Assembly: GCF_900111745.1 (NCBI RefSeq)
Contig: NZ_FOIJ01000023.1
Coordinates: forward strand, 62,001-126,000
DNA from: Stigmatella erecta
GTDB lineage: Bacteria; Myxococcota; Myxococcia; Myxococcales; Myxococcaceae
Reading direction: 5' to 3'
DNA: 64,000 nt
Of this stretch, positions 1,845-18,158 are shown in pieces. A program made the translations under genes and the position numbers. Below the pieces are notes generated by a model. It was not told the origin of the DNA. It did not search any database and was given only the letters and a program-made list of their open reading frames with translations. The first letter of the stretch is position 1, and the number at the start of each line of letters is the position of its first letter.

Positions 1845-3014
<1,170 letters not shown>

Positions 3015-3057
3015 GGGTTTTCCTTTCAAAAGCTTCTAAGTGGGGGATGCAGGCGAA

Positions 3058-3086: not shown

Positions 3087-3150
3087 GGATGATTAGCCGT
3101 TTTACACGCACTAAGTGGCCAGCCCCGAAGCCCCGGTTATTTTTAAACAG

Positions 3151-4440
3151 TTAGAAAACAGGGTCCGAAGGGCCCTCGGACGCGGGAGAAGACACCGCCT
3201 CCTCCGCGAGACACGGCACGGGAATGGGACAGGCCATGTTGGCCGGACACAGCGCTCGCTGTAGACACGGGGGCGGCTCCGGCGCCATCTCGGCATAGCT
3301 CGCGGAGAGCGTCACCCCTGAGTACCGGCTCCAGCCCCGGACCATGACGTAGTAGGTCCCGGCACTGGGCCAGGAGAACGCGCATGTCTCGCTATTGCCA
3401 CCGGTATAGGGGCGGCAGCCGTACTCGGTCAGGGTGGGCGGGGCGCCGGAGCGGACATAAAGGTCCGCATCCCCTGTCCCCCCCGAGAGGCTGAACGTGG
3501 CGCTGGAGACATTTCCGGGGACATAGAAGGTGTAGACCTTCTCCGTGGCCCCACCTCCATAGAGGTTGGAGACAGGGCTGGAGCGCGTGAGCGCATTCCA
3601 GTACGCCACCACCGAGAGGCCGGAGGAAGCCGTGACGCTCTTCACCAGCACGGAGTAGGAGCCCTCGGCGGCCGCGAAGAAGCACGCGTCGTAGTTGCCG
3701 CTGTAGCGCGACGCGCAATCATACGACGCCTCCGTCGCCACACCGCCCCGCTTGACGTACAGGTCCGCGTTTCCCGTCCCGCTGCTCAGGGAGATGGACA
3801 GCCCCACCGAACCTTCGGGGATGGCCACCGAAAAATGTTTCTCGCCCCCGGCGCCCTGCGTGAACCCCGAGACCGGAACCCCCTGGGAGAGCGCCGCGGT
3901 GGTCGAGTTGCAGTACATATTCACGTGAAATATTGGCGCCACGCTGTACGCACTTCGATCCGTATAGAGATTGCAGTCCTTGAGCTGGGGGTGGGGATAG
4001 AGCTGGCTGCCCACCCCAGGCGTGGGCGTCGTGCCAAAGAGGGGGTAGTACGGGGAGGGCCGCAGGCTCGCCGAGGTCCACTGGTAGAAGCCCGCGCTGT
4101 CCAGCACCTGTGTGGAAGGCATGCGCGTGAAGAGCGCATGGGCATAGGTTCCGTTGATCTCAAAGTTCGCGATGTCGCCGTGGAAAGCGTTCTGCCCGGA
4201 GGGATTGGCCAGCGGATCCACCTCCTGGTAATCCATCATCGGGTTGGCGCCGTCGGTGACGGGAAACCCCTGCACGGTGACCAGCTTGTTCAGCGCGCAC
4301 CGCCTCGCCCACTCGACCCGGTTCACCGCATCCGCCGGGCTGATGGCATCCATCCCACACTGTCCAAACTGCGCCTGGGCCTCGATGGGAACGAAGAGTC
4401 CCCCAGCCAGAACAGCCACGGTGCGAAACGTGAGCCTCAT
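3151..4440 (-). CDS. Secreted protein: island N-terminal domain plus two PPC domains
   Basis: A 429-residue secreted protein. The signal peptide ends near AQAQ. Residues about 20-195 form a domain shared with the Hint proteins at 8159 and 13254: a Cys followed by SPADAVNRVEWARRCAL, then a YPLFGTT stretch and a FHVNMYC motif. Here the domain is followed not by Hint but by two bacterial pre-peptidase C-terminal (PPC) domains with ADLYVK/ADLYVR and paired Cys, seen at about 205-295 and 305-400. The tail is Cys/Pro-rich. PPC domains usually sit at the end of secreted peptidases, but no protease motif is visible. ATG 4440 is preferred over the upstream GTG because AGGAAGG precedes it. Function of the shared domain is unknown. 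Confidence 0.85.
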   Translation of the reverse strand: MRLTFRTVAVLAGGLFVPIEAQAQFGQCGMDAISPADAVNRVEWARRCALNKLVTVQGFPVTDGANPMMDYQEVDPLANPSGQNAFHGDIANFEINGTYAHALFTRMPSTQVLDSAGFYQWTSASLRPSPYYPLFGTTPTPGVGSQLYPHPQLKDCNLYTDRSAYSVAPIFHVNMYCNSTTAALSQGVPVSGFTQGAGGEKHFSVAIPEGSVGLSISLSSGTGNADLYVKRGGVATEASYDCASRYSGNYDACFFAAAEGSYSVLVKSVTASSGLSVVAYWNALTRSSPVSNLYGGGATEKVYTFYVPGNVSSATFSLSGGTGDADLYVRSGAPPTLTEYGCRPYTGGNSETCAFSWPSAGTYYVMVRGWSRYSGVTLSASYAEMAPEPPPCLQRALCPANMACPIPVPCLAEEAVSSPASEGPSDPVF

Positions 4441-4584
4441 ACGGAGAGGGCCTTCCTGTGGGGGATTCACTAGCCGTGGAATTCTACCATGAAAAGGAAT
4501 TCAGGAACAGAGTTCCAACTTCTCGTAACTGAATCTAGTCGTTTTCCTTGCTTCGCTTGAGCAAAGAGGCGTATCCGGAAGACC
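4441..4584. promoter_or_regulatory. Divergent intergenic region
   Basis: 144 bases separate the PPC protein (minus) and the HEAT-repeat protein (plus). The stretch is AT-richer than its surroundings and holds two GGAATTC copies near 4478 and 4495. It must carry both promoters, but I could not pick out convincing -35/-10 pairs. Confidence 0.4.
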
Positions 4585-6546
4585 ATGCACGGGACGATCG
4601 CGCGAAAGGCATGGGGGCCTCTGGCCGTCGTCCTGCTGGGATTGGGCGCCTGGTGGTCCCTGGCGGGCAGAGGACAGCCTGAAACGCCCACCGCGCCGGA
4701 CGCCTCGGTCCCACAAGCCTTGCCCTCGCCGCAAGGTCAGACGCCCCCCACGGCGCCCGCCGCGCTCCAAGCCTCCCGCGCGTGGCGGCCTGGGAGCCTG
4801 TACCGCTACGAGGTGAGCAGCGAGCAGGATGTCACCCTGCGTCAACCCCAGACAGCGGCCCCCGCCATGCCAGGGATGCGGTTCCGGCTGAAGGGCGAGT
4901 GGCAGGTGGGCCTCGTCTCCGCGCAGGAGAACCGCATCGAGGCCCGGGTCCACCTGCGTCCGGCCTCCTTCTCCGCGAGCGTGGAGGGCCAGGACCAGCT
5001 GGCCCCCGATGCCGAGCGCATCCTTCTGGCGGCGCTGTCGACGCCCTTCTTCCTCACGCTGGACAGAAGTGGCGCGGTGAAGCTTGTCCACTTCGAGCGG
5101 GACATCGATGGCCTGGCCCAGGGGCTGCTGCGCTCCCTGGTGGCCTCTACCCAGTTCGTCACGGCGGGCGCGCTGGGCGCCGCCTGGCAGACCGAAGAGT
5201 CCGACTCCACGGGCCAATACCAGGCCGCCTACCGCCGCCTGGCCTCAAACCGCTTCGAGAAGACCAAGCGCCACTACTCCCATCTGGCCTCGGAGCAAGG
5301 ACTGGTGCCCATCGAGCCCGGCGTCCGCCTCCAGGTGCGCTCGGTCACCACCTCCGAGTTGGAGGAGGATCTCTGGGTCCGCTCCCTGCAGGGCAACGAG
5401 TGGTTGGAGGCCGAGTTGGGCGTCGGAATGCCCACCGCCACCACCACCCTCACCGTGGCGCTGCGCCTGCTGGAGCGCCGCATGGACCCCTCGCTGCTGG
5501 GGGCGCTGGCCGCGCGGCAGGCCTCGCTCGTCTCCCAGCCCCTGGGCAGCATCGCGGGGCAGGCCGAGGACCCGATGACCCACCACCGGCAGATCCTGGG
5601 AAACAGGCGCTTCGAGGACATCGTCCAGGACTTGCGCGCACTGCCGCAGGACGGGAAGGCGCGGGATGACGCCCGCACGGCGGCGCTCGAGCGGCTGCGC
5701 GCGCTCTTCTTGCTCCAGCCTTCCGAGGCGCAGAAGGTCTCCAGCCTGCTGCGCGAGGGCCTCGAGCCGGCCGCGGCCAGCCCCTTGATGGGCGCGCTGT
5801 CGGCGGCCAGCACGCCCGAGTCCCTCCAAATCCTGTCGCGCACCATCGAGGATGCCACCCTGGCCCCGTCCGTCCGCACGGATGCCGTGGCCGCCCTGGG
5901 CATGGCCGGCGAGCCCACCCAGGAGGCCGTGGACACGCTGTGGCGCACCACCCGGGACGCCTCGCCCGAGCTGCGCGACACGGCGGCGCTCGCCCTGGGC
6001 AATGCGGCCATGAACCTGCAAACCGGCGACCCCCGGCGCGCGGACGCCCTGGTGGGCGAGCTGGTGAGTGCCTATCGCTCGGCCACCACCCCGGAGCAAC
6101 AAGCCCTGGTGTTACAGGCCCTGGGCAACACCCATGCCGCCAGCGCGCAGCCCCTCTTGCTGGAAGGACTGCGCTCCCCCAGCCCGATGGTCCGCGCGGC
6201 GGCCGTCGTCGCGCTGCGCTTCTCGCCAGAGCCCTCCACCGACCCGCTCCTGAGCCAGGTGCTCACCGCCGATCCCTCCTCCGAGGTGCGCAAGAGCGCG
6301 GTCTTTGCTTGCAGTTTCCGCCCCCTCCCGCCCCTGCTCCTGGGGCTCCAGCGCGCCTTGCAGAGCGATCCGGCGGACGCCGTGCGCGCGGAGATTGTCT
6401 TCCTGCTGGGGCGAAACCGCGCCGCCCTGCCCCAGGTGGATGCCCTGCTCACCTGGACCAGCCAGAACGACCGCAGCATGGACATCCGGCAGGCCGCGAT
6501 GTCCTTCCTCCGCCCGTCCGCGCAACCGCTCCCCCCCTCCCCCTGA
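4585..6546 (+). CDS. Membrane-anchored HEAT-repeat protein with vitellogenin-like layout
   Basis: A 653-residue protein. A hydrophobic N-terminal anchor (about 9-28) is followed by a Pro/Ala/Gln linker and then a beta-rich domain (about 60-290) starting with a YRYEVSSEQ strand. From about 330 to the end there are HEAT-type helical pairs, for example LQALGNTHAASAQPLLLEGL and MVRAAAVVALRF. A beta-barrel followed by a helical arch is the arrangement of the lipoprotein N-terminal (vitellogenin) domain, and the TPESL and LGNAA segments are reminiscent of it. That assignment is by eye only; a plain HEAT-repeat exported protein is the safe call. The start is supported by GGAAG upstream. The next gene encodes a secreted beta-rich protein. 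Confidence 0.75.
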   Translation: MHGTIARKAWGPLAVVLLGLGAWWSLAGRGQPETPTAPDASVPQALPSPQGQTPPTAPAALQASRAWRPGSLYRYEVSSEQDVTLRQPQTAAPAMPGMRFRLKGEWQVGLVSAQENRIEARVHLRPASFSASVEGQDQLAPDAERILLAALSTPFFLTLDRSGAVKLVHFERDIDGLAQGLLRSLVASTQFVTAGALGAAWQTEESDSTGQYQAAYRRLASNRFEKTKRHYSHLASEQGLVPIEPGVRLQVRSVTTSELEEDLWVRSLQGNEWLEAELGVGMPTATTTLTVALRLLERRMDPSLLGALAARQASLVSQPLGSIAGQAEDPMTHHRQILGNRRFEDIVQDLRALPQDGKARDDARTAALERLRALFLLQPSEAQKVSSLLREGLEPAAASPLMGALSAASTPESLQILSRTIEDATLAPSVRTDAVAALGMAGEPTQEAVDTLWRTTRDASPELRDTAALALGNAAMNLQTGDPRRADALVGELVSAYRSATTPEQQALVLQALGNTHAASAQPLLLEGLRSPSPMVRAAAVVALRFSPEPSTDPLLSQVLTADPSSEVRKSAVFACSFRPLPPLLLGLQRALQSDPADAVRAEIVFLLGRNRAALPQVDALLTWTSQNDRSMDIRQAAMSFLRPSAQPLPPSP

Positions 6547-6658
6547 AGGGAGGACCCCACACAGCTCACCCGCAGAGACTGAGAAGTATTCACGGCTAGT
6601 GTGCATTTTTTGTAAACTGATCTACTCTGCGCCCCCCGCTATCCCCGAAAGGAAGGCC

Positions 6659-7867
6659 ATGACGCGTCCGATGCTCAAGGCAGTATGGATGATGACGTTC
6701 GCCGTACCTGGGCTTGCACTTGCACAAACCGCGCCTCATTACACGGACCCGAACACCTATCAGGTCGAGGTGATGTACCCGCCGGCCGCCTATGCGACCG
6801 GCTACGTGATGAATGACAGCCTGCCGTGGGAGTCGTCCTATCCCTTCGTCGTGGGTGGCTACTACACCTCGACGGACCAGGCGGCGATCATCAACGAAGA
6901 GGTGGACGCGACGGGCGGAATCCTGTCCAGCGAAGGGGGCGCCCCGCTGATCAACATCAACCAGGGCAACATCCCGGAGGCGGTCCGGCCCAACGTGCCG
7001 CCGGTCGTGGAGCACTTCCCGTCCCCGGACTCGATGCAGGTCCAGACGCCGGGGTACAACAAGTCGTACTCGCGCACCCAGAGCTTCGGAAACAGCATGT
7101 TCGGGGGCGGCTACGCCATTGACACGGCCGTGACGGCCACCGATGGCACGCTGGCCGAGGCCAAGACGGTCGAGGCCTTCGCCGACGGCAAGGTCTTCGG
7201 CACCGCCTTCAACACGCAGAAGGAGCTGGTGCGCGGCCGCGTCGACATCAAGGGCCAGGCCAATGGCCCCAACACCAGCAAGGCGGTGCTCTACGCGATG
7301 GGCCAGCAGATCTGGTCCTCCAACCTCTCCGCGAGGTTCGAGCCCACCCCCGTCGACTGGAGCCGCACGTTCTTCTCGATCTCCAAGACGTTCATGGTCG
7401 GCCCCGTGCCCATCTCGGTCAAGGCGTCGCTCGCGGGTGGCGTCAAGCTCAAGGTGCTCGGAGAGATCAACCCGACGCTCGCCAAGCTGACCGCGGAGCC
7501 CGGCGGGTTCTCCAACGTCACGGCTTCCGCCTCGGTCAACATCATCGTCGCCAGCTTTGGCGTCGAGGGAGGCCTCACCCTCATCAACGCCAAGATGCCC
7601 ACGCTGGGCCAGCTCGACTGGCCGCTGTGCACCGTCAACTGGCAGCTCAGCTCCAAGCTGAACCTCAACACGCTCTCGGGCACCCTGAGCCTCTTCGCGA
7701 AGATCAAGTTCCTCTTCTTCAGCAAGAAGTGGACGGTGACCATCGCCCGGTGGAATGGGCTCACCTATGACTGGACGCTGCTGGGGGTGAACGGCACCAA
7801 GGATCTCGGCATCTGCACCTCCAACGACAACGCCGCGCCGCCCCTGCTCACGGCCAGCGCGAACTGA
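6659..7867 (+). CDS. Secreted protein of unknown function
   Basis: A 402-residue protein with a clear signal peptide (ending GLALAQT). I recognise no family. The N-terminal half is Pro/Tyr/Asn-rich. The C-terminal half (about 235-385) has alternating hydrophobic strands, such as PVPISVKASLAGGVKLKVLG and ASVNIIVASFGVEGGLTL, suggesting a beta-sheet or barrel structure; two Cys are near the end. ATG 6659 follows GAAAGGAAG and is the first codon that gives a signal peptide; the frame stays open further upstream inside the HEAT gene. It lies 112 bases after the HEAT-repeat gene and ends in a strong terminator, so the two could be one unit. A role with that protein in binding lipid or a surface ligand is conjecture. 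Confidence 0.8.
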   Translation: MTRPMLKAVWMMTFAVPGLALAQTAPHYTDPNTYQVEVMYPPAAYATGYVMNDSLPWESSYPFVVGGYYTSTDQAAIINEEVDATGGILSSEGGAPLININQGNIPEAVRPNVPPVVEHFPSPDSMQVQTPGYNKSYSRTQSFGNSMFGGGYAIDTAVTATDGTLAEAKTVEAFADGKVFGTAFNTQKELVRGRVDIKGQANGPNTSKAVLYAMGQQIWSSNLSARFEPTPVDWSRTFFSISKTFMVGPVPISVKASLAGGVKLKVLGEINPTLAKLTAEPGGFSNVTASASVNIIVASFGVEGGLTLINAKMPTLGQLDWPLCTVNWQLSSKLNLNTLSGTLSLFAKIKFLFFSKKWTVTIARWNGLTYDWTLLGVNGTKDLGICTSNDNAAPPLLTASAN

Positions 7868-7894
7868 CCTCCCTGACCCGGACGGCCAGCCCCC

Positions 7895-7927
7895 AAGCCT
7901 CGCTTTCCAGCGAGGCTTGTTTTTTTT
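7895..7927 (+). terminator. Rho-independent terminator
   Basis: A perfect 10-bp stem (7895-7904 with 7909-7918), loop TTCC and a run of eight Ts (7920-7927), 27 bases after the stop of the secreted-protein gene. A textbook terminator that cuts the first half of the island from the Hint operon. Confidence 0.92.
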
Positions 7928-8011
7928 GCGAGGAAGGGCCCGGGCACACAAGCACTCACGGTGTGGCGAAACCCAATCCTCAAGCGGTATCTCCAGCACT
8001 CATTAAAATTC

Positions 8012-8039
8012 ATGACATTTCACATAAAGTCCGTATACC
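8012..8039 (+). promoter_or_regulatory. Possible promoter of the first Hint gene
   Basis: ATGACA, 16 bases, TATACC in a locally AT-rich stretch after the terminator. The -35 matches 5 of 6 positions and the -10 matches 4 of 6. It would give a leader of about 110 bases before the ATG at 8159, so another start site is possible. Confidence 0.35.
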
Positions 8040-8158
8040 ATTGAACCCCTTAAACTGATGCCAGAGGGTTTAGTCCGGGACTCGAGTGCCGCCTCCCGCG
8101 GCATTGAGGGCAGTGTTTTGTCTGAAGCACGGGAGTTGCCAACTTCGAAGGAGTCAGC

Positions 8159-9235
8159 ATGAACAAGATTCAGATTCTGGGAGCCATGGCCGTTGTTGCC
8201 GGCGTTTCGCTGGTTTCCACGGAGGCCGAAGCGCAGCCAATCCTTCTCCAGCGCTGCAGCGCGGACAACCTGAGCCCTGCCGAAGCGCTTGCCCGCATCG
8301 AGTGGGCCCGTAAGTGCGCGCTCTCGCAGCGCGTGGGCAGCCCGGGTGCCGGGTTCGACACGGGAATCCCCGCCGCCAACGGTGGCAATCTCATCGAGTA
8401 CGTCGAGGCGGACTCGGGCGCCAACCCCAACGGCAAGGATGCGTTCTCGGGGCCGGCGTATGGCTTCGAGGTCAACTACGCCAACGTCAACACGACCTTC
8501 CTGAGCGGCTCCACCAGCCAGAGCTCGGATCCGGACGGCTACAAGAAGTGGACGCGCCCCGCCACCCGTGCGCGCGCCCGCCCGCTGTACCCCACCTTCG
8601 GCACCACCGCCAACCTGGCGGATGCCAACAACTTCCAGCTCATTCCGAGCAGCACCAGCTGCCAGGTCCTGAACGGCGGCGCTCCGGCGGCGACCTTCTA
8701 CGTGAACGGCTACTGCGAGGCGAGCTGCTACTCCGGTGACCAGAAGGTCCTGTTCGAGGGCGGCGAGCAGCCCATCCTCGACGCGCTGAACTCGCGCCGC
8801 GAGGATCTGGTGACCCTGTCCTCGGAGTCCACGCTGGACAACGTCCGGCTGGCGAAGAACAAGACCTACGGCTACACCGTGGAGACGCGCGACACGGCGC
8901 ACGAGCTCATCGCCATCTCCACCGCGGCCGGCGGCACGCTGAACGTGACGGATGAGCACCCGGTCATCAACGGCGAGGGCCGCATGGTGCAGGCCAAGAC
9001 CCTCAAGACCGGTGACGAGCTGGTACGCGCGGATGGAAGCCGTGACCCCATCGTGAGCATCGAGCGGGTCAAGCACTTCGGCAAGGTGTACAACATCCGC
9101 CCGGTGACCGAGGACCTGGTCTCCAACGTCCTGGTGGCCCAGGGCTTCCTCGTGGGCTCCTCGCGGTTCCAGAACGATGACGTGGGCTACATCAACCGCG
9201 TCATCCTCTACAGCGACGTGCCGCACATCCCGTAG
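8159..9235 (+). CDS. Secreted Hint (intein-like) domain protein, copy 1
   Basis: 358 residues. The signal peptide ends near STEAEAQ. Residues about 25-185 are the island N-terminal domain (RCSADNLSPAEALARIEWAR, RPLYPTFGTT, FYVNGYCEA). A Hint domain follows: nucleophile-position Cys190 in ASCYSGDQKV, block-B TDEH with His267, a block like KTLKTGDELV, VYNIRP, and FLVGSSRFQN ending at Asn339. The 19 residues after Asn339 are nearly the same in the second copy. Known Hint domains self-splice or self-cleave at these Cys and Asn positions, so autoprocessing after export is expected but not shown. GAAGGAG precedes the ATG. Two hairpins follow the gene. Confidence 0.88.
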   Translation: MNKIQILGAMAVVAGVSLVSTEAEAQPILLQRCSADNLSPAEALARIEWARKCALSQRVGSPGAGFDTGIPAANGGNLIEYVEADSGANPNGKDAFSGPAYGFEVNYANVNTTFLSGSTSQSSDPDGYKKWTRPATRARARPLYPTFGTTANLADANNFQLIPSSTSCQVLNGGAPAATFYVNGYCEASCYSGDQKVLFEGGEQPILDALNSRREDLVTLSSESTLDNVRLAKNKTYGYTVETRDTAHELIAISTAAGGTLNVTDEHPVINGEGRMVQAKTLKTGDELVRADGSRDPIVSIERVKHFGKVYNIRPVTEDLVSNVLVAQGFLVGSSRFQNDDVGYINRVILYSDVPHIP

Positions 9236-9257
9236 TCCATCCCACTGAAGAGAACCG

Positions 9258-9317
9258 GGAGCCCGCCACGCACCGGCGGGCTCCTGGCCAGAACCGCCCA
9301 CCTTTCCGGGTGGGCGG
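9258..9317 (+). terminator. Two consecutive GC-rich hairpins after Hint copy 1
   Basis: Stem 9258-9267/9275-9284 (10 bp, perfect) is followed by stem 9294-9302/9309-9317 (9 bp, perfect). Neither has a T-run, so they may act as weak or partial terminators, or protect mRNA ends, letting the first Hint gene be expressed above the genes downstream. Confidence 0.5.
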
Positions 9318-9357
9318 CGTTGCGTCCCTTCTGCTCCGCTGGAGGCCTGGGATTTCG

Positions 9358-10173
9358 ATGAAGCCCTTCCGAATCACCCTCATCGCCGCAGTGCTCATCG
9401 TGGCCGCCGTCGTCTCGGTCGAGTTCGCCCTGTCCGGGCCTCCCGAGGTACCGGTGCTGGCCACGCCCGAAGGGGCCGCCGCCGTCCCCCCCGCCCCGCA
9501 GCAGGCCGCCGCGCCTTCCCGGCCGCCGCCCAAGCCCGCAGCCGCCGCGCAGGCCGCCATTCCGCCCCTGCTCGCCTCCCCTGAAACACCCTTCCTGCCC
9601 GAGGATGACGGAGAGCACGGCGAGTTCACCACCTCGACGGACATCCTCAAGCAGCGCCTCTTCAAGCGCGAGCCCAAGCTGGCGCAGTTCGACTACTTCC
9701 GCGAGCACGTCCTGCTCGACTCCGTCAGCCGGGAGAGCTACCGCAAGCTGCTGCTGGACAAGGAGATGATCGCTCAGACGCGCGATGCGCTGCTGCACCC
9801 GAAGTACACCAAGGACACGACCGAGACCAACGTCGAGCGCTTGATGCAGATCGACTACCTGCGCGAGGGCATGGCCTGGAAGGAGAACCCGGAGATCGAC
9901 CACCTGCTCGCCACGGTGGAGTCCATCATCCTGGAGGACACCTTCACGGAGGACATGTCCCCCGGCGTCAAGCGCTCCATCGCCGCGACCAAGATGGAGC
10001 TGTACGAGCTGCTCTCCAACCGCGACCCCGCCCGCGCGCTCGCGCTGGTGGACAAGGTCCGGGGAACCCGGCTGGAGAAGATGCTCCAGTACTTCGCCGA
10101 GCACAACCAGCGCCGCCTGGCCAAGGAGCGCGAGCTGAGCCTCCAGGCGCAAAAGTCTACCCCCAAGCCATAA
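9358..10173 (+). CDS. Membrane-anchored protein of unknown function
   Basis: 271 residues. A single N-terminal hydrophobic helix (about 6-24) is followed by an Ala/Pro-rich spacer to about residue 80 and then a charged, mostly helical domain (TTSTDILKQRLFKREPKLAQ onward) ending in a basic, coiled-coil-like tail. No family is recognised. ATG 9358 has GGAGG upstream; an in-frame ATG at 9310 would spoil the signal anchor. Its stop codon overlaps ATG 10173 of the next frame (TAATG), so it is probably co-expressed with the two propeller lipoproteins. It could tether or assemble the secreted products of the island, but nothing in the sequence proves this. Confidence 0.75.
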   Translation: MKPFRITLIAAVLIVAAVVSVEFALSGPPEVPVLATPEGAAAVPPAPQQAAAPSRPPPKPAAAAQAAIPPLLASPETPFLPEDDGEHGEFTTSTDILKQRLFKREPKLAQFDYFREHVLLDSVSRESYRKLLLDKEMIAQTRDALLHPKYTKDTTETNVERLMQIDYLREGMAWKENPEIDHLLATVESIILEDTFTEDMSPGVKRSIAATKMELYELLSNRDPARALALVDKVRGTRLEKMLQYFAEHNQRRLAKERELSLQAQKSTPKP

Positions 10174-10187
10174 TGAGAAGAGCCTCC

Positions 10188-11579
10188 ATGTCCGTCTTCC
10201 TCTCCTTCCGAAACCTCCTGGCGGCCACCGCCGCGGGCACGCTGGCGGCCGGCTGCAGTCCCGAAGAGCTTCCCCCCGAGCCCACCCACAGTGGCTTCGA
10301 GTGGTCCACCCAGGGGTGGAACCTCATCGGCACCCACTTCGGCACGTTCCAGAACGACGAGGCCACGGACCTCTGGATTCACCCCTTCTCGGGCGCCGTC
10401 TATGTCTCCGGCTACGAGAACGGCTTGCTGGGACAGTCCTCGATCGAGCCCTCGGGCAACGCGGACGGTTTGATCCTGTCCTTCCCCTCGAACCTGGACT
10501 GGCAATACGCCAAGACCCTCAAGTTCGAGAGCACCGATGGGAAGGCGGAGGTCATCGAGGCGATCAGTGCCAAGCCTGTCCAGGGACAGGACTCGTTCGA
10601 TCTGTACTTCGCGGGACGCACCACGGGGACGTTCGGCACGGCCAACGCCGGCCAGTTCGACACCCTCGTGGGCTGGACCAATCGCGGGTTAACCACCAAG
10701 AGGGTCTTCCAGTTCGGCACGGATCGGCCCCAGCACCCGCGGCGGCTGGCGCTCGATGGCCGGGGGGGCATTGTCGTCTCCGGGTATGACGATATCTACA
10801 TCCCCTCCAACTATGTGGAGGCGTGGGAAGATCCGTTCGTCATGAAGGTGCAGCGCTCGAACGACACCCTGGCACATGCCGCCGGGTGGCCCGTCCAGTT
10901 CGCGACCCCCTTCACGGACACACTGCCCGGCATGGCGATGAAGTCCGAGGCGAACGCGCCCATCTACGTCACGGGCTCCAACGCTGCCGGCAGCGGCCGC
11001 GGCATGTTCGTGAAGAAGTTCCGGCCCGATGGCACCGTCGAGTGGACCGCCCAGCAGTCCTCCATCTCCCTGGACATGGGGGCGGCCCTGCATGTTCTGC
11101 CGGACAACACCGTGCTCTTCGCCGGCTCCAGCTATGCGGACTTCGGACAGGGCACCTTCGGTGAGCAGGACGTGGTGGTGCGCCGGCTGCGCCCGGACAA
11201 CAACGGGCAGGCCCTCTGGACCAGGACGTATGGAACCACGAGCGCCGAGTGGGTCACGGACCTGACCGTCGACACCGAAGGCAACATCTACGTGGTCGGC
11301 CAGACCCTGGGTTCGTTCGATCCCAGAATCGAGCCCGGCCAGGGAGAGAGCGACATCTTCCTGATCAAGCTGGCGCCGGATGGAACCTCGCCCCAGTACT
11401 TCCAGATCGGCTCGCCGGGAGAGGACTATCCCGCGTCCGTCGCGGTGAATGCGAACGGCGACATCTTCGTGGCAGGCTACACCACGGGCACCCTCATTCC
11501 TGGCAGCCCGTACAAGGCGGGCCGTGATGGCTTCGTGTTCCGCGTGACGCCTCCTGGCTTCGGAACGGGCGCCTACTAA
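10188..11579 (+). CDS. Beta-propeller lipoprotein, tandem copy 1
   Basis: 463 residues. A type II signal peptide ends in LAAGC. The body is a series of propeller blades with YVSGYENG, YVTGSNAAGSG, VLFAGSSY, IYVVGQTLG and IFVAGYTTG strands. The neighbouring lipoprotein at 11618 is a clear paralog: both share the near-identical DDIYIPSNYV..WEDPFV segment, QHPRRL, and EWVTDL. The start is either ATG 10173, overlapping the previous stop, or ATG 10188; I prefer 10188 because GAGAAG lies at normal distance before it. Likely faces the periplasm or cell surface. Ligand unknown. Confidence 0.82.
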   Translation: MSVFLSFRNLLAATAAGTLAAGCSPEELPPEPTHSGFEWSTQGWNLIGTHFGTFQNDEATDLWIHPFSGAVYVSGYENGLLGQSSIEPSGNADGLILSFPSNLDWQYAKTLKFESTDGKAEVIEAISAKPVQGQDSFDLYFAGRTTGTFGTANAGQFDTLVGWTNRGLTTKRVFQFGTDRPQHPRRLALDGRGGIVVSGYDDIYIPSNYVEAWEDPFVMKVQRSNDTLAHAAGWPVQFATPFTDTLPGMAMKSEANAPIYVTGSNAAGSGRGMFVKKFRPDGTVEWTAQQSSISLDMGAALHVLPDNTVLFAGSSYADFGQGTFGEQDVVVRRLRPDNNGQALWTRTYGTTSAEWVTDLTVDTEGNIYVVGQTLGSFDPRIEPGQGESDIFLIKLAPDGTSPQYFQIGSPGEDYPASVAVNANGDIFVAGYTTGTLIPGSPYKAGRDGFVFRVTPPGFGTGAY

Positions 11580-11617
11580 GCAACAACCGCCCCCATCTCC
11601 CTGGAGAAACGCCCTCT

Positions 11618-13219
11618 ATGTCCCTGCGCCCGAGCTTGGTGCTCCTGGTGTCTGCCCTGGTGGTGCTGACAGCCTGTGGTGAAGACTCCCCGCCAGATGG
11701 CGGGACGCCCGACAGCGGGGTCATCACGCCCGATGGCGGAGGGGATGGCGGCCGCCCGGATGGGGGCCCCCCCGGGGACGGTGGCTCTCCGGGAGACGGG
11801 GGTCCCCCCGGGGACGGCGGCTCCCCCGGAGACGGCGGCACGCCGGGGGATGGCGGCACACCTGACGCAGGTGGCCCGCCTCGCTGTGTCGTCCTGCCAG
11901 CCAGCTGGAGCAATGGCGGGGTGATGTGGGGAACGGCGCTCAGCGATGAGGTCCTGGACGTCGCCATCGACAACGAGGCGAACGTCTTTGTCGCCGGCTA
12001 CGAGAATGGCATCACGGGGCAGACCAACGTCGATCCCTCGGGAGATGCCCGCGCGGTGCTCGTGAAGCTCGCCACGGGCGCCTCCGGGCTGGCGCCCGCC
12101 TGGAAAAAGGAGTTCAACACCGCGGGAACGGACACCCTCGAAGCGCTCGCCTTCCACCCGGAGACGGGCAAGCTGCACTTCGCGGGCCGCACCACCGGTG
12201 CCTTCCCTGGCTTCACCCACCAGGGCCAGCAGGATCTCTTCCTGGGCGGCCCGGGCAGCGCCTCGGACTTCGAGGTGCTCTATCAGGGGGGCTCGGAGAC
12301 GCCCCAGCACCCCCGCCGGCTCCACTTCGATGCCGCGAGGGATGTCATCGTCAGCGGGTTCGACGACATCTACATTCCCAGCAACTACGTCGATAAGTGG
12401 GAGGACCCCTTCGTCGCCAAGCTGCGCCGGGACGGAGACACGTTCACGGTGCAGTGGTGGTGGCAGTTCAACACCCCCCATACCGACATGCTGGGCGGGG
12501 CCGCGGTCGATGCCCGGAGCACGTCCTCCATCTACATCACGGGCGTCAACGCCGCCGGGGCCCAGCGTGGCACCTTCGCGCAAAAGATCGACCCGGCCGG
12601 CAAGAGCGTGTGGTTCCAACGCCAGACGCCGGTGGGCATCGACATGATGCAGGCGGCCGAGATGCTGCCGGACGGGCACGTGGCCATCGCGGGCTCGACC
12701 TTCTCCACGCTGGGCGATCGGGCCTATGGCCAGCAGGACATCGTCGTCCGGAAGCTGGACGCGGCGACCGGCACACCCCTCTGGACGTTCCAGTTCGGCA
12801 CCGAGGAGTCCGAGTGGGTCACGGACCTGGCGGTGGACGCGCAGGGCAACCTCCTCGTGGTGGGCCAGGCGACCCTGGCCCTGAAGGATGGCTACGAGCC
12901 CAAGGGGGACATGGAGGTGTTCCTCGTGAAGGTGAACCCGGAGGGAAAACTGCTCGATGTCTACCAGTGGGGCAGCGCCGGAGAGGACTATCCCGCCACG
13001 GTGGCCGCGGACGCGTGTGGGGCGGCGATCATCGGTGGCTTCACGACCGGGGATTTCTTTGGCCCAAGCCAAGGGGCCCGGGATGCCTTCCTCCTCACCA
13101 CCGCCGCCTCTGTGCCCACCGCGGGCGGCGCCTCAGGAGTGCCGGCCCTTCCAGGCGAAGCAGGCTGGTGTGGGGGAACGCTGCCCTCGCACCTCGGGCA
13201 GCCCCCTCTCTCCCGGTGA
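11618..13219 (+). CDS. Beta-propeller lipoprotein with PGDGG linker, tandem copy 2
   Basis: 533 residues. A type II signal peptide (VVLTAC) is followed by a flexible Gly/Asp/Pro linker to about residue 86, including six copies of a [PST]PGDGG hexamer. A propeller domain paralogous to the preceding protein follows: same VAGYENGITGQ, QHPRRL, DDIYIPSNYV, WEDPFV, ESEWVTDL and AGEDYPA landmarks. The extra C-terminal 30 residues are Pro/Gly-rich with one Cys. The gene begins 38 bases after copy 1 and ends 34 bases before Hint copy 2. The long linker would let the propeller reach away from the membrane. Tandem duplication is evident; the role is unknown. Confidence 0.82.
   Translation: MSLRPSLVLLVSALVVLTACGEDSPPDGGTPDSGVITPDGGGDGGRPDGGPPGDGGSPGDGGPPGDGGSPGDGGTPGDGGTPDAGGPPRCVVLPASWSNGGVMWGTALSDEVLDVAIDNEANVFVAGYENGITGQTNVDPSGDARAVLVKLATGASGLAPAWKKEFNTAGTDTLEALAFHPETGKLHFAGRTTGAFPGFTHQGQQDLFLGGPGSASDFEVLYQGGSETPQHPRRLHFDAARDVIVSGFDDIYIPSNYVDKWEDPFVAKLRRDGDTFTVQWWWQFNTPHTDMLGGAAVDARSTSSIYITGVNAAGAQRGTFAQKIDPAGKSVWFQRQTPVGIDMMQAAEMLPDGHVAIAGSTFSTLGDRAYGQQDIVVRKLDAATGTPLWTFQFGTEESEWVTDLAVDAQGNLLVVGQATLALKDGYEPKGDMEVFLVKVNPEGKLLDVYQWGSAGEDYPATVAADACGAAIIGGFTTGDFFGPSQGARDAFLLTTAASVPTAGGASGVPALPGEAGWCGGTLPSHLGQPPLSR
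11768..11875 (+). repeat. 18-base coding repeat (linker hexapeptides)
   Basis: Six in-frame 18-base units encode PPGDGG, SPGDGG, PPGDGG, SPGDGG, TPGDGG and a degenerate TPDAGG, in the linker of the propeller lipoprotein. Array length could vary between strains by slippage without changing frame. Confidence 0.85.
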
Positions 13220-13253
13220 AAAAAACACCCTAACCAACAGCAAGGAGTTTCAC

Positions 13254-14375
13254 ATGAAGGGTTTGTTCGGGGCATGCGCCACCTTGTTCGCGGCTGGTTT
13301 TCTGCTGCCCTCGCTTGCAGAAGCCCAGCCGATCCTCCAGCAGCGCTGCAGCGCGGACAGCCTGGATTCTGGTCAAGCCGAGCGGCGCCTGCTCTGGGCC
13401 CGCCGCTGCGGTTTGCTGACCCACGTGGGAAGCACCGGCAACTGGTTCGACACCTATGCTCCCTCCTCGAACAACGCGGGAACCTTGAAGGATTACGCCG
13501 AGGACAACATCGCCACCAACTGGGCGGGGCAGAATACCTATACCGGCCAGAGCGAGGCCTTCGAGCTCAACTCCTCGTTCGTCTCCAGGCTCTACCTGAG
13601 CGGCCTCACCTACCAGTACACGGATGGCGATGGGTTCTTCCGCTGGGAGCGCCCCCTGGCCCGCAAGAAGGCACGCCCGCTCTACCCGACCTTCGGCAGC
13701 CAGGGCGACATCTACAGCCCCAGCAACCAGCAGCTGTTCCCCCACCCCAGCCAGGTGATCGACGGCAGCCCGCTCAACTGCAGTTTCTATCTCAACCAGG
13801 CCGGGACGATTCCGGCGACGGGCATGAGCTTCTACGTGAACGGCTACTGCGAGGCGTCGTGCTACACGCCCGACCAGAAGGTCCGCTTCCCCGAGGGGGA
13901 TGTCGCCATCGTCGAGGCCGTGGCCAGCATGAAGAAGGACGTGGTGACGCTGACGCCCGACTCCAGCCTCGACGCCATCCAGCTGCAGACGAACAAGACC
14001 TACAGCTACACCGCGGAGTTCCGTGACACGGCGCACCCGGTCGTGCAGCTGGAGATGGCCTCGGGCGGAAAGCTGACCGTGACGACGGAGCACCCGCTCA
14101 TCAACAGCGAGGGCCGGCTGGTGACCGCCCAGACGATCAAGGTGGGCGATGAGCTGGTCAAGGTGGACGGCTCGTTCGATCAGGTCGTGAGGGCGGAGCG
14201 CAAGACGCACTTCGGCAAGGTGTACAACCTGCGGCCGGACACCGACGAGCGCCTCTCCAACATCCTGGTGGCGGAGGGCTACCTCGTGGGCTCGTCGCTC
14301 TTCCAGAATGACGAGGTCGGCTACGTCAACCGCATCATCCTCCACCGGCAGGTGCCCGCGTCGCTGATTCCTTGA
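13254..14375 (+). CDS. Secreted Hint (intein-like) domain protein, copy 2
   Basis: 373 residues, paralogous over its full length to the protein at 8159. The signal peptide ends LAEAQ. The shared N-terminal domain (RCSADSLDSGQAERRLLWAR, RPLYPTFGS, FYVNGYCEA) spans about 25-200. The Hint domain has Cys203 in ASCYTPDQKV, His280 in VTTEHPL, TIKVGDELV, VYNLRP, and terminal Asn352 in SLFQN. A 21-residue tail follows, with DEVGYVNRIIL matching DDVGYINRVIL in copy 1. Start ATG 13254 has AAGGAG upstream; open frame continues 5' inside the preceding gene but without a signal peptide. Keeping all Hint landmarks in both copies while the N-domain diverges suggests selection on the self-processing part. 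Confidence 0.88.
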   Translation: MKGLFGACATLFAAGFLLPSLAEAQPILQQRCSADSLDSGQAERRLLWARRCGLLTHVGSTGNWFDTYAPSSNNAGTLKDYAEDNIATNWAGQNTYTGQSEAFELNSSFVSRLYLSGLTYQYTDGDGFFRWERPLARKKARPLYPTFGSQGDIYSPSNQQLFPHPSQVIDGSPLNCSFYLNQAGTIPATGMSFYVNGYCEASCYTPDQKVRFPEGDVAIVEAVASMKKDVVTLTPDSSLDAIQLQTNKTYSYTAEFRDTAHPVVQLEMASGGKLTVTTEHPLINSEGRLVTAQTIKVGDELVKVDGSFDQVVRAERKTHFGKVYNLRPDTDERLSNILVAEGYLVGSSLFQNDEVGYVNRIILHRQVPASLIP

Positions 14376-14475
14376 GCGGAGGGTAGCCCCCAGGCCCGGA
14401 CCGGCAGCGCCCCTGCGTTGCCGGCCCGCGGCGGCCCCTCGGACAGCGGGTGCTCCCGCCAGTCCGCCGGTCAAG

Positions 14476-14498
14476 AAGGCCACCGGAGCGGCCTTTTT
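14476..14498 (+). terminator. Rho-independent terminator closing the island
   Basis: AAGGCC (14476-14481) pairs with GGCCTT across an 8-base loop, extendable by A-T and G-T pairs, and leads into five Ts (14494-14498). It sits between Hint copy 2 and proC. Confidence 0.6.
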
Positions 14499-14536
14499 GC
14501 ATTACGCTCCCGGCTCCCCTGGAGCCCCCTTCTTCT

Positions 14537-15370
14537 ATGCTCGAACGCACCATCGCCTTCCTCGGAGCCGGCAACATGGCGGAGGCCCTCATCAAGGGCC
14601 TCCTGCGCTCCGGCACCGCCCGCCCCGATGCCATCCTCGCCACGGGCCGCCGCACCGACCGGCTCCAGGTGCTCCAGAGCACCTACGGCGTGCGCACCCT
14701 GACGGACAACGTGGCAGCCGCGCGCGAGGCGGACATCATCGTCCTCTCCGTCAAGCCGCAGGCCATGGACAAGCTGCTCGTCCAGGTCGCCCCCGTGCTG
14801 GACCACACCAAGCTCATCATCTCCGTGGCGGCCGGCGTCCCCATCGCCGCGCTGGAGCGGCGCTTGGGCGCCGGGGCGCGCATCGTCCGCACCATGCCCA
14901 ACACCCCCTCCCTGGTGGGCGCGGGCGCGTGCGCCCTGTCCCGCGGCGAGCACGCCAGCGACGAGGATCTCGCCGTGGCCAGCCGCATCTTCCAGGCCGT
15001 GGGCATCACCACCGTGGTGGACGAGAACCTCCTGGATGCCGTGACGGGGCTGTCGGGCAGTGGCCCCGCCTACCTCTTCCTCGTCATCGAGGCCCTCTCG
15101 GACGCCGGGGTGAAGGTGGGGCTGCCCCGCTACACCGCCCTCAAGCTCGCCGCGCAGACGGTGCTCGGCAGCGCCCAGCTCCTCATCGAGACCAATGCCC
15201 ACCCGGGCCAGCTCAAGGACCAGGTGACGAGCCCCGGGGGCACCGCGATCGCTGGCCTGCATACCCTGGAGGCAGGCGGGCTGCGCACCACCCTCATCAA
15301 CGCCGTGGAGGCCGCCACCCGGCGCGCCAAGGAGCTGGGCGAGCAGTTCCTGGAGAAGTCCGGGGGCTGA
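14537..15370 (+). CDS. proC: Pyrroline-5-carboxylate reductase
   Basis: 277 residues, normal length for ProC. It catalyses the NAD(P)H-dependent last step of proline synthesis in the cytoplasm. The N-terminal Rossmann motif is FLGAGNMAEALIKGL, the central part has RTMPNTP, and the C-terminal dimerisation domain has the family signature GLSGSGPAY followed by SPGGTAIAGL. ATG 14537 places the glycine-rich loop at residue 10 as usual. It heads a run of four closely spaced plus-strand genes (gaps of 16 and 5 bases, then a 4-base overlap). Confidence 0.97.
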   Translation: MLERTIAFLGAGNMAEALIKGLLRSGTARPDAILATGRRTDRLQVLQSTYGVRTLTDNVAAAREADIIVLSVKPQAMDKLLVQVAPVLDHTKLIISVAAGVPIAALERRLGAGARIVRTMPNTPSLVGAGACALSRGEHASDEDLAVASRIFQAVGITTVVDENLLDAVTGLSGSGPAYLFLVIEALSDAGVKVGLPRYTALKLAAQTVLGSAQLLIETNAHPGQLKDQVTSPGGTAIAGLHTLEAGGLRTTLINAVEAATRRAKELGEQFLEKSGG

Positions 15371-15386
15371 CCTATAATCGGCCCCC

Positions 15387-15914
15387 ATGAAGATCACCCC
15401 GCTCGACATCCGGCAGAAGCGGTTCGACACCGCCATCCGTGGCTTCTCCCGCCGGGAGGTGGAAGCCTACCTGGAGCTGCTCGCCGGTGAGTTCGAGGAG
15501 GTGGTGAAGGAGAACATCTCCCTCAAGGAGGAGCTGCGCCGGGCCCAGCTGCGCATCGAGCAGTACCAGGAGCGCGAGCGCACCCTCCAGGAGACCATGG
15601 TCACCGCACAGCGCATCAGCGAGGACCTGAAGTCCGCCGCCAAGAAGGAGGCGGAGATCATCATCGCGGACGCCGAGCACCAGGCGGAGAAGATCGTCCA
15701 CGGCGCCCACCAGAAGCTCGTGCAGGTGGTGGAGGACATCAACGAGCTCAAGCGCCAGCGCACCCAGTTCGAGTCCCAGGTGCGCTCGGTGGTGGAGGCG
15801 CACCGCAAGCTGCTGGAGACCTTCAGCGCCCCCAGCTTCGCCGACCGCGACTACGCGCGCGTCGAGGACAACGTGGCCTACCTCTCCCAGAAGAAGGCCA
15901 CCCACGGCGAGTAG
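15387..15914 (+). CDS. DivIVA-family coiled-coil protein
   Basis: 175 residues. The N-terminus KITPLDIRQKRFDTAIRGFSRREVEAYLELLA is the DivIVA membrane-binding and coiled-coil entry motif, with an aromatic (Phe20) where the lipid-inserting loop lies. Residues 30-155 are continuous heptad-rich coiled coil. DivIVA proteins mark curved membrane at poles and septa and recruit growth or chromosome-segregation factors. It lies 16 bases after proC and 5 bases before the DUF167 gene, a grouping also seen around yggS/yggT-type clusters elsewhere. The specific client is not predictable. Confidence 0.9.
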   Translation: MKITPLDIRQKRFDTAIRGFSRREVEAYLELLAGEFEEVVKENISLKEELRRAQLRIEQYQERERTLQETMVTAQRISEDLKSAAKKEAEIIIADAEHQAEKIVHGAHQKLVQVVEDINELKRQRTQFESQVRSVVEAHRKLLETFSAPSFADRDYARVEDNVAYLSQKKATHGE

Positions 15915-15919
15915 TCCCC

Positions 15920-16216
15920 ATGCCCGCCTGGCTCAAAGTCCTGCCAGACGGCGTGGAGCTGGCCCTGCTCATCCAGCCCCGCGCCTCGCGCACCCGGGTG
16001 GTGGGCGAACACGATGGGCTGCTGAAGCTCCAGCTCGCCGCCCCCCCCGTGGACGGTGAGGCCAACGCCGCCCTGGTGGAGTTCCTGGCCAAGCGCCTGG
16101 GCATCCCCCGCCGCCAGGTGACGCTCGTGGCGGGTGACGCGGCGCGGCGCAAGCGGGTGTTTCTCCAGGGAGTTGATGCGGCCCAGGCCGAGGCTGTTAT
16201 GTCTCAGGCCTCGTGA
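15920..16216 (+). CDS. DUF167/YggU-family protein
   Basis: 98 residues, whole-family length. Landmarks are VQPRA-type IQPRASRTRVVGEHDG, the APPVDGEANAAL segment and a final RRKRVFLQG strand. The family is small, conserved and without a settled biochemical role; it is often encoded near proC, yggS and divIVA, as here. Its last four bases overlap the GTG start of the next gene, indicating translational coupling. Confidence 0.92.
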   Translation: MPAWLKVLPDGVELALLIQPRASRTRVVGEHDGLLKLQLAAPPVDGEANAALVEFLAKRLGIPRRQVTLVAGDAARRKRVFLQGVDAAQAEAVMSQAS

Positions 16217-17385
16217 GTCCGCGCATGCGCCTGCTCCTGCTCCTGTCCTTGTTGCTGTTGGCCCCCCAGGCGTCCGCCCAGGAGGGCGGCGTGAGCGCGC
16301 ACGGCGTGGCGGAGCCCGCGCTCGTGCCCACCTCCCGGCCGGCGCTCGTGGCGGGCGAGGTGGCCACCCCGCGCTTCCGCCTGCTCTACACCCTGGCCTC
16401 GGAGGGCACCGCCCGGGCCCTGGCGGAGAACATCGAGGCGGTGCGCGACTCCTTCGTGAAGGTGTTCGGCCGGGACTGGCCGGGCATCACCGAGGTCCGC
16501 ATCGGCCTGGGCCGCGAGGAGTACGAGGCCCTGGCGCTGCCGGGCGGCGAGCCCCCGGGCTGGGCGGTGGCGCTGGCCTACCCCTCCCACGGCATCATCC
16601 TGCTGGAGGCCCGGAGCCTGAGCACCCCCGAGGGCCCGGTGACGCTGCGCCACGAGCTGGCCCACGTGGCCCTGGGCCAGATCGGGGGCCGCTGGCCCCG
16701 CTGGTTCCAGGAGGGCATGGCCCAGCACCTCACCGGGGAGCGCATCGCCCTCACCCACTACGCGGCCATCTTCCGCGCCGTGGCCCAGCAGCGCGTCTTC
16801 GAGTTCGAGGATCTCGCGCAGGGCTGGCCCGACATGCGCTCGGATGTGGAGATCGCCTACGCCCAGAGCGCGGACTTCGTGGCCTACCTCGCCGCGACCC
16901 ACGGGGCCCCTGCCATGGCCGATCTGCTCAACGGGGTGGCGGCGGGCGAGCCCTTCGAGAAGGCCTTCGGCATGGCCTTCCACTCCTCGCTCACCGTGGA
17001 GGAGAACGCCTGGCGCGGAGGGCTCGCCACGCGCTTTGGCTGGCTGCCGCTCACCACCAGCTCGCAGCTGGCGTGGATGGTGGCCCCCGCGCTGTGCGTG
17101 GTGGCCTACCTGCGCCGCCGCCAGCAGCAGGCCGCCCGCCTGGAGCTCATGTCCCAGGAAGAGGCCGCCGAGGACGCCGAGATGGAGCGCCTGGCCCGGG
17201 AGATGGCCCTGCGGGAGCCGGAGCCCTCCGCGGAGGCGTCCCTCGTGGCCTGGCCTGCCCCCGCCACCGGCGAGCCGCAAGAACTGCAAGAGCCGCAGGA
17301 GCCCCAGGAGCCTCAGGAGCGGCGCGAGCTTCGGGACGAGGACGAGGCGCGGAACCCGCACCAGCCCAAGCCCACGCTGCACTGA
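16213..17385 (+). CDS. Secreted, membrane-tethered gluzincin-like metallopeptidase
   Basis: 390 residues. A signal peptide (LLLLSLLLLAPQASA) precedes a peptidase MA-like domain. It has HELAHVALGQ (HExxH zinc motif, about residues 154-158) and a downstream WFQEGMAQH helix whose Glu should be the third zinc ligand. A hydrophobic stretch near 295 (LAWMVAPALCVVAYL) looks like a transmembrane helix, leaving a charged cytoplasmic tail with QEPQEPQE repeats. The start is GTG 16213 inside the preceding stop (GTGA); ATG 16225 is an alternative. The substrate is unknown. A periplasmic protease anchored by its C-terminus is the simplest reading. Confidence 0.85.
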   Translation: MSPRMRLLLLLSLLLLAPQASAQEGGVSAHGVAEPALVPTSRPALVAGEVATPRFRLLYTLASEGTARALAENIEAVRDSFVKVFGRDWPGITEVRIGLGREEYEALALPGGEPPGWAVALAYPSHGIILLEARSLSTPEGPVTLRHELAHVALGQIGGRWPRWFQEGMAQHLTGERIALTHYAAIFRAVAQQRVFEFEDLAQGWPDMRSDVEIAYAQSADFVAYLAATHGAPAMADLLNGVAAGEPFEKAFGMAFHSSLTVEENAWRGGLATRFGWLPLTTSSQLAWMVAPALCVVAYLRRRQQQAARLELMSQEEAAEDAEMERLAREMALREPEPSAEASLVAWPAPATGEPQELQEPQEPQEPQERRELRDEDEARNPHQPKPTLH

Positions 17386-17593
17386 GCCGGACCCCCACCG
17401 CCGCCGCCTCCAGCAACCGGCCAGCCCTGGGCGCGGTGAGGCGCGGAGGGCCGGTGTGCGTCCCGCGCCGCTGAAGCTCCTTTCCCTCCGGGGGGCCCCG
17501 GGACCGGAGAAATTACGGCCTGGGGGGCTCCCCGCAGTCGGAGCCATCCGTCCAACGTGCCGATTTTCTTGAGGGTTGGGAGCCCGAGGCCGC

Positions 17594-17609
17594 TGGCAAC
17601 GGACTTGCT
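17594..17609 (+). promoter_or_regulatory. Sigma-54 (-24/-12) promoter
   Basis: TGGCAACGGACTTGCT matches the sigma-54 consensus TGGCACRNNNNTTGCW at every fixed base except one (A for C at position 6), with correct GG-to-GC spacing. A start site about 12 bases past the GC (near 17620) leaves a leader of about 20 bases that contains GGAGGA just before ATG 17643. Transcription would need an enhancer-binding protein. Confidence 0.75.
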
Positions 17610-17642
17610 TTGTCTGGGGACAGAACCTGGAGGACACCAGAC

Positions 17643-18158
17643 ATGACGGAGCGTGGAAAGCGGGCAGCAGGCGTGGCGCGGGTCTTCACCCAGCAGCCGG
17701 ACCGTCTCGCCGCCGCTTGGAGGCGGGTGCGATGCACGGGAAGCGCGCAGCACATGCCCCCCCAGGGATTGCTGGATGCGCTGGTGGAGCCCTTCATCCG
17801 CGAGGTGGGTCTGAGCCTGGCGGGCAACGAATCGAGCGCGTGGAGCCGCACCCGGGCGGTGCTCCGGCTGTCCCCGGAGCGGGGCGCGCGCAGCCTGTAT
17901 GAGGAGTTCGCCGTCCTGCGCCGCTGCATGGTGGACGCGGTGGAGGTGCTGGGCGGCGGGGACGCGGAGCGTGCGGTGGTGAACCGCGCCGTGGACGAGG
18001 CCGTGGATTCCTCGGTGGCGCTGCTGCAGCGGCTCATCGACACGTCGGCCGACGGCCCGCGCGTGCCCTTTGGCGGTTTGGTGGTGGAGTGGTTCGAGCG
18101 CCCGTCCGAGGCCCGGGTTCAGCCCGCCTCCAGCGGTGAGCGCGCGGCGCTTCATTAA
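17643..18158 (+). CDS. Small helical protein of unknown function under sigma-54 control
   Basis: 171 residues, no signal peptide or membrane segment. It is predicted mostly helical and contains SLYEEFAVLRRCMVDAVEVLG followed by AVDEAVDSSVALLQRLID. These two helices resemble the sensory four-helix region found at the N-terminus of RsbR-type proteins and of some histidine kinases, but no kinase or STAS domain follows. ATG 17643 has GGAGGA nine bases upstream. The gene is alone between a sigma-54 promoter and a strong terminator, so it is a monocistronic, probably signal-induced unit. The function cannot be named. Confidence 0.75.
   Translation: MTERGKRAAGVARVFTQQPDRLAAAWRRVRCTGSAQHMPPQGLLDALVEPFIREVGLSLAGNESSAWSRTRAVLRLSPERGARSLYEEFAVLRRCMVDAVEVLGGGDAERAVVNRAVDEAVDSSVALLQRLIDTSADGPRVPFGGLVVEWFERPSEARVQPASSGERAALH

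Follow-up and report, generated by a model that had tools for sequence, protein, structure and literature searches.

The two Hint-domain proteins encoded on a 64,000-nucleotide stretch of Stigmatella erecta DNA (contig NZ_FOIJ01000023.1, positions 62,001 to 126,000 of the forward strand; called the window below) raise the question of whether they cut themselves, at which end of the domain they would do so, and what the genes between them contribute. The first protein, P0001, is specified by an open reading frame (ORF) of 358 amino acids (8159..9235, + strand) and consists of a signal peptide (about residues 1–25, judged by eye), a cysteine-containing N-terminal domain (N-domain; about residues 26–185), the Hint domain (residues 190–334) and a tail (residues 335–358). 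The second, P0002, is specified by a 373-amino acid ORF (13254..14375, + strand) and has Cys203, T277xxH280 and Gly346-Ser347. The two proteins are 49% identical in the BLAST alignment, both start with a signal-peptide-like sequence, again by eye, and both end with the tail D[DE]VGY[IV]NR[VI]IL. A first-pass annotation of this DNA had described the two ORFs at these same positions, with a shared N-domain, an export signal, the Cys190/203 and TxxH (264–267/277–280) residues and the common tail, and our analysis agrees with it on all of these points. We consider it fairly probable (roughly 0.6) that both are secreted autoprocessing proteins that undergo N-terminal cleavage only, with the product of the adjacent gene, mid1, as a dedicated partner and with exchangeable clients.

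We searched the proteins against domain profiles and the structural model of P0001 against known structures. The best Pfam match was PT-HINT (E = 4.4e-05 for P0001 and 7e-05 for P0002; scores of 24.2 and 23.5 bits for a gathering score of 27.7). TIGR01445, a profile of the intein N-terminal region, matched P0001 and P0002 with E-values of 0.0029 and 0.0011, respectively, and its position 1 aligned to Cys190 of the former and Cys203 of the latter. When the AlphaFold model of P0001, built on a four-row alignment, was compared with the PDB by Foldseek, all 38 rows with E ≤ 0.001 were inteins, bacterial intein-like (BIL) domains or Hedgehog. VIA-align gave Z scores of 11.0 for the intein 6vgv, 10.7 for Hedgehog 1at0 (root mean square deviation 2.6 over 109 residues) and 8.8 for the BIL domain 2lwy, with a top Z of 11.8. 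The model thus showed the Hint horseshoe fold that had been proposed for these proteins.

The residues serving the N-terminal half of the Hint reaction were followed in a family alignment of 121 sequences, comprising 120 called genes and a Bdellovibrio protein, with gaps set aside in the counts. Cys190 (codon 8726..8728, + strand), the predicted nucleophile and residue 1 of the Hint domain, was cysteine in 117 of 119 non-gap rows; an asparagine counted at this position belongs to a large protein, L100, whose cysteine did not align. On the other side of the predicted scissile bond, Ser189-Cys190, residue 189 was Gly, Ser or Ala in 118/118 rows. The block B residues T264-x-x-H267 (8948..8959, + strand) were likewise conserved (Thr in 119/121 and His in 120/121). 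The Hint fold and the conserved N-terminal catalytic residues are real in both proteins, and these residues make N-terminal cleavage at Ser189|Cys190 plausible.

Relatives of these Hint domains were found in 12 of the 39 searched relatives' genomes, the own genome counted, and, across the phylum, in 63 of the 195 genomes (E ≤ 1e-6), which excludes a chance match; both counts take in the class of larger proteins mentioned below. The 63 genomes comprised 57 of the window's own family, one of f11 and five of f22 (1.3–1.8 Mb), and a single genome had up to ten Hint-profile matches. No relative was found on viral contigs. Among plasmid records, one, from Bdellovibrio sp. HAGR004, matched P0001 (residues 178–354 at 31%); its Hint domain forms the end of a 911-amino acid protein with a lipobox-like start, PKD domains, the N-domain motif and an NGSxxFQ tail. 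Two further kinds of Hint protein were noticed. One is a second class of about 630–690 amino acids with a C-terminal Hint domain and a GD..Q end, seen in the window's family (L100:2730-4688, − strand; L142:3710-5692); plasmid records from Pseudoalteromonas, Tistrella and Azospirillum encode related proteins. The other, found in genomes of only 1.3–1.6 Mb, consists of Hint proteins that are short and built like ours (L090:6261-7076, − strand; L093:6136-6954, + strand), and no mid1 gene was detected with them.

The C-terminal end of the domain bears on whether the proteins could also splice. Block G of inteins has the form GxxxHN (PMC7765530). In an alignment of 35 relatives, block G of the present proteins instead reads as a glycine, three residues and then G[SD], so that the place of the terminal His-Asn is taken by Gly333-Ser334 in P0001 (9155..9160, + strand) and by Gly346-Ser347 in P0002. 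Residue 333 was Gly in 119/120 rows of the family alignment and residue 334 was Ser or Asp in 117/120; the His and the Asn of inteins occupied these two positions in 0/120. The structural comparison placed the end at the same point: the aligned range stopped at model residue 334 in 27 of the 50 displayed alignments, with partner chain ends such as residue 125 of 6riz, 440 of 2in9 and 159 of 1zd7, which we take to be the terminal Asn of those inteins. Since His-Asn is replaced by Gly-Ser, neither Asn cyclisation nor splicing would be expected, and the earlier expectation of cleavage rather than splicing seems reasonable to us.

The cysteines of these proteins are distributed in a way that would suit a reactive Cys190. 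From the RC motif of the N-domain up to Cys190, 100 of 109 proteins had an even number of cysteines, and 106 of 109 had none after it. Twelve of the 121 rows had been dropped before this count (the Bdellovibrio protein, three gene calls longer than 470 amino acids, two rows lacking the nucleophile Cys and six that the search pattern did not fit); P0002 was among the overlong calls, owing to an overlong start, and has four cysteines before Cys203 by eye. Because an even number precedes it and mostly none follow, Cys190 would be left as the odd, unpaired thiol of a secreted protein, as a Hint nucleophile needs. Prompted by the redox-trapped intein 3nzm, we considered a Cys186-Cys190 redox trap and dropped it: apart from the even count, Cys186, present in 118/118 non-gap rows, is kept in N-domain proteins that lack Cys190 (window 3151-4440 and L094:6321-7397). 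A partner for Cys186 within the N-domain is more likely.

The N-domain itself had no Pfam match in either protein. Its core motif is roughly RCxxDxLx(n)AxxRxxWAxKC; the strict pattern was present in 63 of 118 Hint proteins shorter than 480 amino acids, and the Bdellovibrio protein has a looser form. The P0001 model, with a predicted local distance difference test score (pLDDT) below 50 in this region, does not allow a fold to be derived for it. The N-domain shared by P0001 and P0002, as first described, is indeed present in both, but it is not special to them: it also occurs where there is no Hint domain, as tandem repeats at other places of the genome and, as profile and sequence searches revealed, in a protein with PPC domains within the window (3151..4440, − strand).

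Immediately downstream of the first Hint gene lies mid1 (9358..10173, + strand), whose 271-amino acid product starts with an anchor helix, continues with a linker rich in Pro and Ala and ends in a domain predicted to be all-helical. Searching 96 genomes of the window's family with the single sequence, an approach that misses more distant mid genes, yielded 36 homologues in 28 genomes; all 36 were at most 2530 bp from a Hint match, and 29 of them were within 360 bp. With three profiles, midA, midM and midS, a mid-like gene was detected in 56 of 68 fetched Hint loci; the loci had been picked from Hint matches, and the genes that went into the midS and midM profiles had been selected by their position next to Hint. 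The midA and midM profiles are related (probability 95.9, E = 5.2e-09), and 45 of the 68 loci rest on these two. We conclude that the Hint proteins have in mid1 a partner dedicated to them.

We also looked at what kind of protein Mid1 might be. Its single-sequence model had a mean pLDDT of 51.8 and was confident from about residue 181 only, and it had no PDB match with E ≤ 0.001; the missing match is no evidence of a new fold. A profile of the Lif-type lipase foldases in NCBIfam matched weakly (E = 0.055), over the anchor and linker only; with this and no PDB match to the single-sequence model, we do not adopt a Lif-like foldase as the reading of Mid1. On the Bdellovibrio HAGR004 plasmid, a gene overlapping the end of the Hint gene encodes a 240-amino acid protein with an N-terminal anchor and a linker; it is like Mid1 in build and place, and we claim nothing more for it.

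Between mid1 and the second Hint gene are two genes for SBBP-type propeller proteins with lipobox-like starts, which, together with the single N-terminally anchored protein, is the arrangement first described. Propeller lipoprotein 1 (10173..11579, + strand) matched SBBP with E = 1.6e-08 and the LipL53 family with E = 8.6e-22, the latter below the cut-off score, and has the lipobox LAAGC by eye; propeller lipoprotein 2 (11618..13219, + strand) matched the LipL53 family with E = 9.3e-24 and SBBP with E = 0.0022, both below the cut-offs, and has LTAC, likewise by eye. In relatives, this slot is occupied by other proteins as well: an M4 peptidase with an FTP propeptide together with an M1-like peptidase, subtilases of family S8 (I9 and PPC domains are present in some), proteins with RCC1 repeats, Ig/BNR or LRR proteins, and proteins without assignment. 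When the same-strand neighbours of at least 150 amino acids were clustered, 16 loci had propeller-type genes (26 genes), 16 had an M4 gene (16 genes), 15 an M1 gene (15 genes), 15 an S8-PPC gene (15 genes) and 6 a gene of a different S8 cluster (6 genes). From every cluster, between one and a few members were scanned, and the propeller representative matched propeller profiles under their cut-offs only.

These observations can be assembled into the following scheme. Computation establishes the fold, the conserved catalytic residues, the loss of His-Asn, the cysteine parity and the co-localisation of mid1; that cleavage occurs, where it occurs, how the disulfides pair and what mid1 and the propellers do is inferred. 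Once the protein is outside, its disulfide-bonded N-domain would fold, and the unpaired Cys190, aided by T264xxH267, would attack the Ser189-Cys190 bond to form a thioester. With Gly-Ser in place of His-Asn, there would be no Asn cyclisation and no splicing; attack on the thioester by water, or by some other nucleophile, would then separate the N-domain from the Hint domain, which would keep the tail. Mid1, judging from its gene neighbourhood alone, may serve as a membrane-anchored helical cofactor, chaperone or docking site, and the adjoining secreted proteases or propellers may be interchangeable clients of the module.

Several points weigh against this scheme. The cleavage is a prediction made from computation alone, and the PT-HINT and TIGR01445 matches are both under their cut-offs. 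The P0001 model is weak (mean pLDDT 44.8; ten-residue blocks of 70–87 over residues 251–310 and 51–68 over 311–330, and below 50 at residues 1–194 and 335–358), so that the place of Cys190 is set by sequence profiles and residue 334 sits at the edge of the confident part. Nine of the 109 proteins have an odd cysteine count. A few members depart from the catalytic pattern: L096:9559-10659 (+ strand) has Ser at the nucleophile position with the upstream Cys retained, L082:5793 has Gln instead of the block B His267, and L133:12438 and L137:1, which match only from profile position 51 on, are without the Cys part and have Pro at Thr264. As to the partner, 11 of the 56 mid-positive loci were found by midS alone, and the match of midS to midA (E = 0.00045, probability 33, 33 columns) was no better than that of a control, an anchored protein without relation to them (E = 0.00082, probability 24); the match of the Bdellovibrio anchored protein was weak as well (E = 0.0099, probability 4). 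No mid gene was detected in 12 of the 68 Hint loci. Short or cut contigs (L095, L128, L130 and L137), the large-protein class (L100) and small genomes (L090 and L093) account for some of these, and L076, L094, L117, L123 and L138 have no such excuse; in L076, a 270-amino acid gene was called on the opposite strand at the mid position.

If the thioester forms, it could instead be passed on, as in Hedgehog. The N-domain would then be moved to Mid1, to a lipoprotein or protease, or to a lipid as a covalent tag, which we regard as unlikely. The conserved residues serve the N-terminal half-reaction only, as in the Hog domain, which also lacks a terminal Asn and resembles the P0001 model; a membrane-anchored partner and secreted proteins usually adjoin the Hint gene; and the N-domain occurs as a module, alone and in tandem. 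However, only about 20 residues follow the Hint domain, leaving no sterol or adduct recognition region, the N-domain differs from that of Hedgehog, and the acceptor remains hypothetical. A bacterial surface conjugation, in which Hint and Mid1 stay together and attach the N-domain to clients that differ from lineage to lineage (propeller, protease, Mid1 or lipid), is in our estimate rather unlikely.

An inactive or very slow Hint domain, acting as a structural or binding module, seems a doubtful explanation as well. It would accommodate the loss of His-Asn, the few members that lack Cys, Thr or His, and the Asn at position 312 (117/120 rows), which we take to be the position of the block F Asp of inteins. 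The near-invariance of Cys190, T264, H267 and the small residue 189 over the 121 sequences is nevertheless unexpected for a dead enzyme.

The first-pass annotation had placed the terminal catalytic Asn at residue 339 (352 in P0002) and proposed cleavage at both ends, with Asn339 freeing a short tail peptide for which the propeller lipoproteins could be the receptors; we hold this to be very improbable. The Cys, the TxxH and the conserved tail (Gln338, residue 339 and the following residues; 9170..9232, + strand) do exist, and Asn is the commonest residue at 339 (91/120 rows; Gln338, 119/120). The intein His-Asn place is, however, 333–334 and not 338–339, and alignment and structure together rule out Asn339/Asn352 as the terminal Hint residue. 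Residue 339, five residues past 334, is other than Asn in 29/120 rows, and the tail, with Arg347 (105/120), is kept even where it is Ser. Because the tail persists in those members, it is a conserved end of the Hint domain rather than a peptide that a cutting Asn of its own would set free, and its release by Asn339 found no support in this analysis. Nor did the idea that the propellers are its receptors: since S8, M4 or M1 peptidases or other proteins hold the slot in other clusters, such a role is unlikely. Finally, a pretoxin HINT of the polymorphic-toxin kind, which would cut loose a toxin at the C-terminus and is suggested by the best Pfam match, is most improbable, as there are only about 20 residues after the domain, no toxin among them, no His-Asn for C-terminal release and a score that missed the gathering threshold of PT-HINT.

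N-terminal cleavage with a dedicated partner can be compared with what is known of other Hint proteins, and the Hint kind itself is already known. Dori-Bachash et al. reportedly described, in 2009 (Funct Integr Genomics 9:153), a new BIL type in Bdellovibrio and predatory bacteria, an intein-like domain with a conserved domain accompanying it. A ‘putative predator-specific domain 1’ (PPS-1) was found in C-type BILs according to PMC9185962, and the present proteins probably belong to the C-type BILs with the predator-specific domain. In favour of this, the HAGR004 plasmid has the same order of N-domain motif, Hint domain and tail as the present proteins. They share the Hint fold, Cys1 and TxxH with A-type BIL domains and inteins, but not the terminal His-Asn. 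B-type BILs are defined by intein motifs in the absence of the C-terminal HN motif (PMC7765530); of this definition, the loss of HN was observed in the present proteins. Burglin (2008) set apart a subgroup of bacterial C-terminal Hint-like proteins, stated to be distinct from intein, Hog and BIL and to include MXAN_6253, STIAU_1829 and members from Reinekea, Photorhabdus, Serratia and Yersinia (PMC2362128). That subgroup has myxobacterial members, some signal peptides, a C-terminal Hint domain and two conserved upstream cysteines, and perhaps corresponds to the class of about 630–690 amino acids (e.g. L100). In the open literature that we searched, most subscription journals lying outside it, no description was found of a mid1-type partner, the G-[SD] end or the exchangeable slot.

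The pair of Hint genes around the module recurs in relatives, and in a tree of Hint copies rooted on L100 the upstream and downstream copies formed separate clades by position: for loci of the window's own type, five upstream copies (support 0.996) and five downstream copies plus one (0.998), and for the midM type, 12 upstream copies (0.823) and 13 downstream copies plus two (0.689). Since the clades sort by position, the two Hint copies are older than the compared genomes.

Two GC-rich hairpins follow Hint gene 1 (9255..9287 and 9294..9317, + strand). Of the 77 spacers that follow a Hint gene, 56 had stems of at least 9 bp (Hint-Hint, 9/17; Hint-mid, 24/32; Hint-other, 23/28), compared with 41 of 100 between other genes; the figures were 7/26 before Hint, 3/9 after mid and 4/6 before mid. 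The median fold z-score was −2.33 for Hint-mid spacers versus −1.18 for those between other genes (Mann-Whitney p = 0.0003, among related sequences that are not independent). Where the hairpins follow Hint genes inside operons, their position is kept and their sequence has diverged. A putative partial terminator or mRNA stabiliser, giving more Hint than partner, would explain the pattern. An Rfam scan of window positions 1-20000 gave no match.

Further genes of the window lie upstream of the module. A divergent set, all on the − strand, comprises the N-domain-PPC gene (3151-4440), an S8 subtilase with an I9 propeptide (1845..3014) and one more propeller-like protein (1-1745). The order of the set is kept in L077, L078 and L079, and in L097 and L098 relatives of the subtilase form part of the Hint cluster. 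Next to it, 4585-6546 (+ strand) encodes a 653-amino acid HEAT-repeat protein with an N-terminal anchor. Seventeen clustered genes of 653–718 amino acids in 17 Hint loci may be its family, and it may therefore belong to the module.

If the Hint proteins cleave themselves outside the cytoplasm, a predatory lineage would have a widespread system of autoprocessing, complete with its dedicated partner and with secreted hydrolases or propellers that can be exchanged. The Hint proteins would also allow a concrete test of the fate of the thioester in bacterial Hint domains without a terminal Asn, namely hydrolysis versus Hedgehog-like transfer. The Hint-mid1 clusters point to a little-studied secreted processing system.

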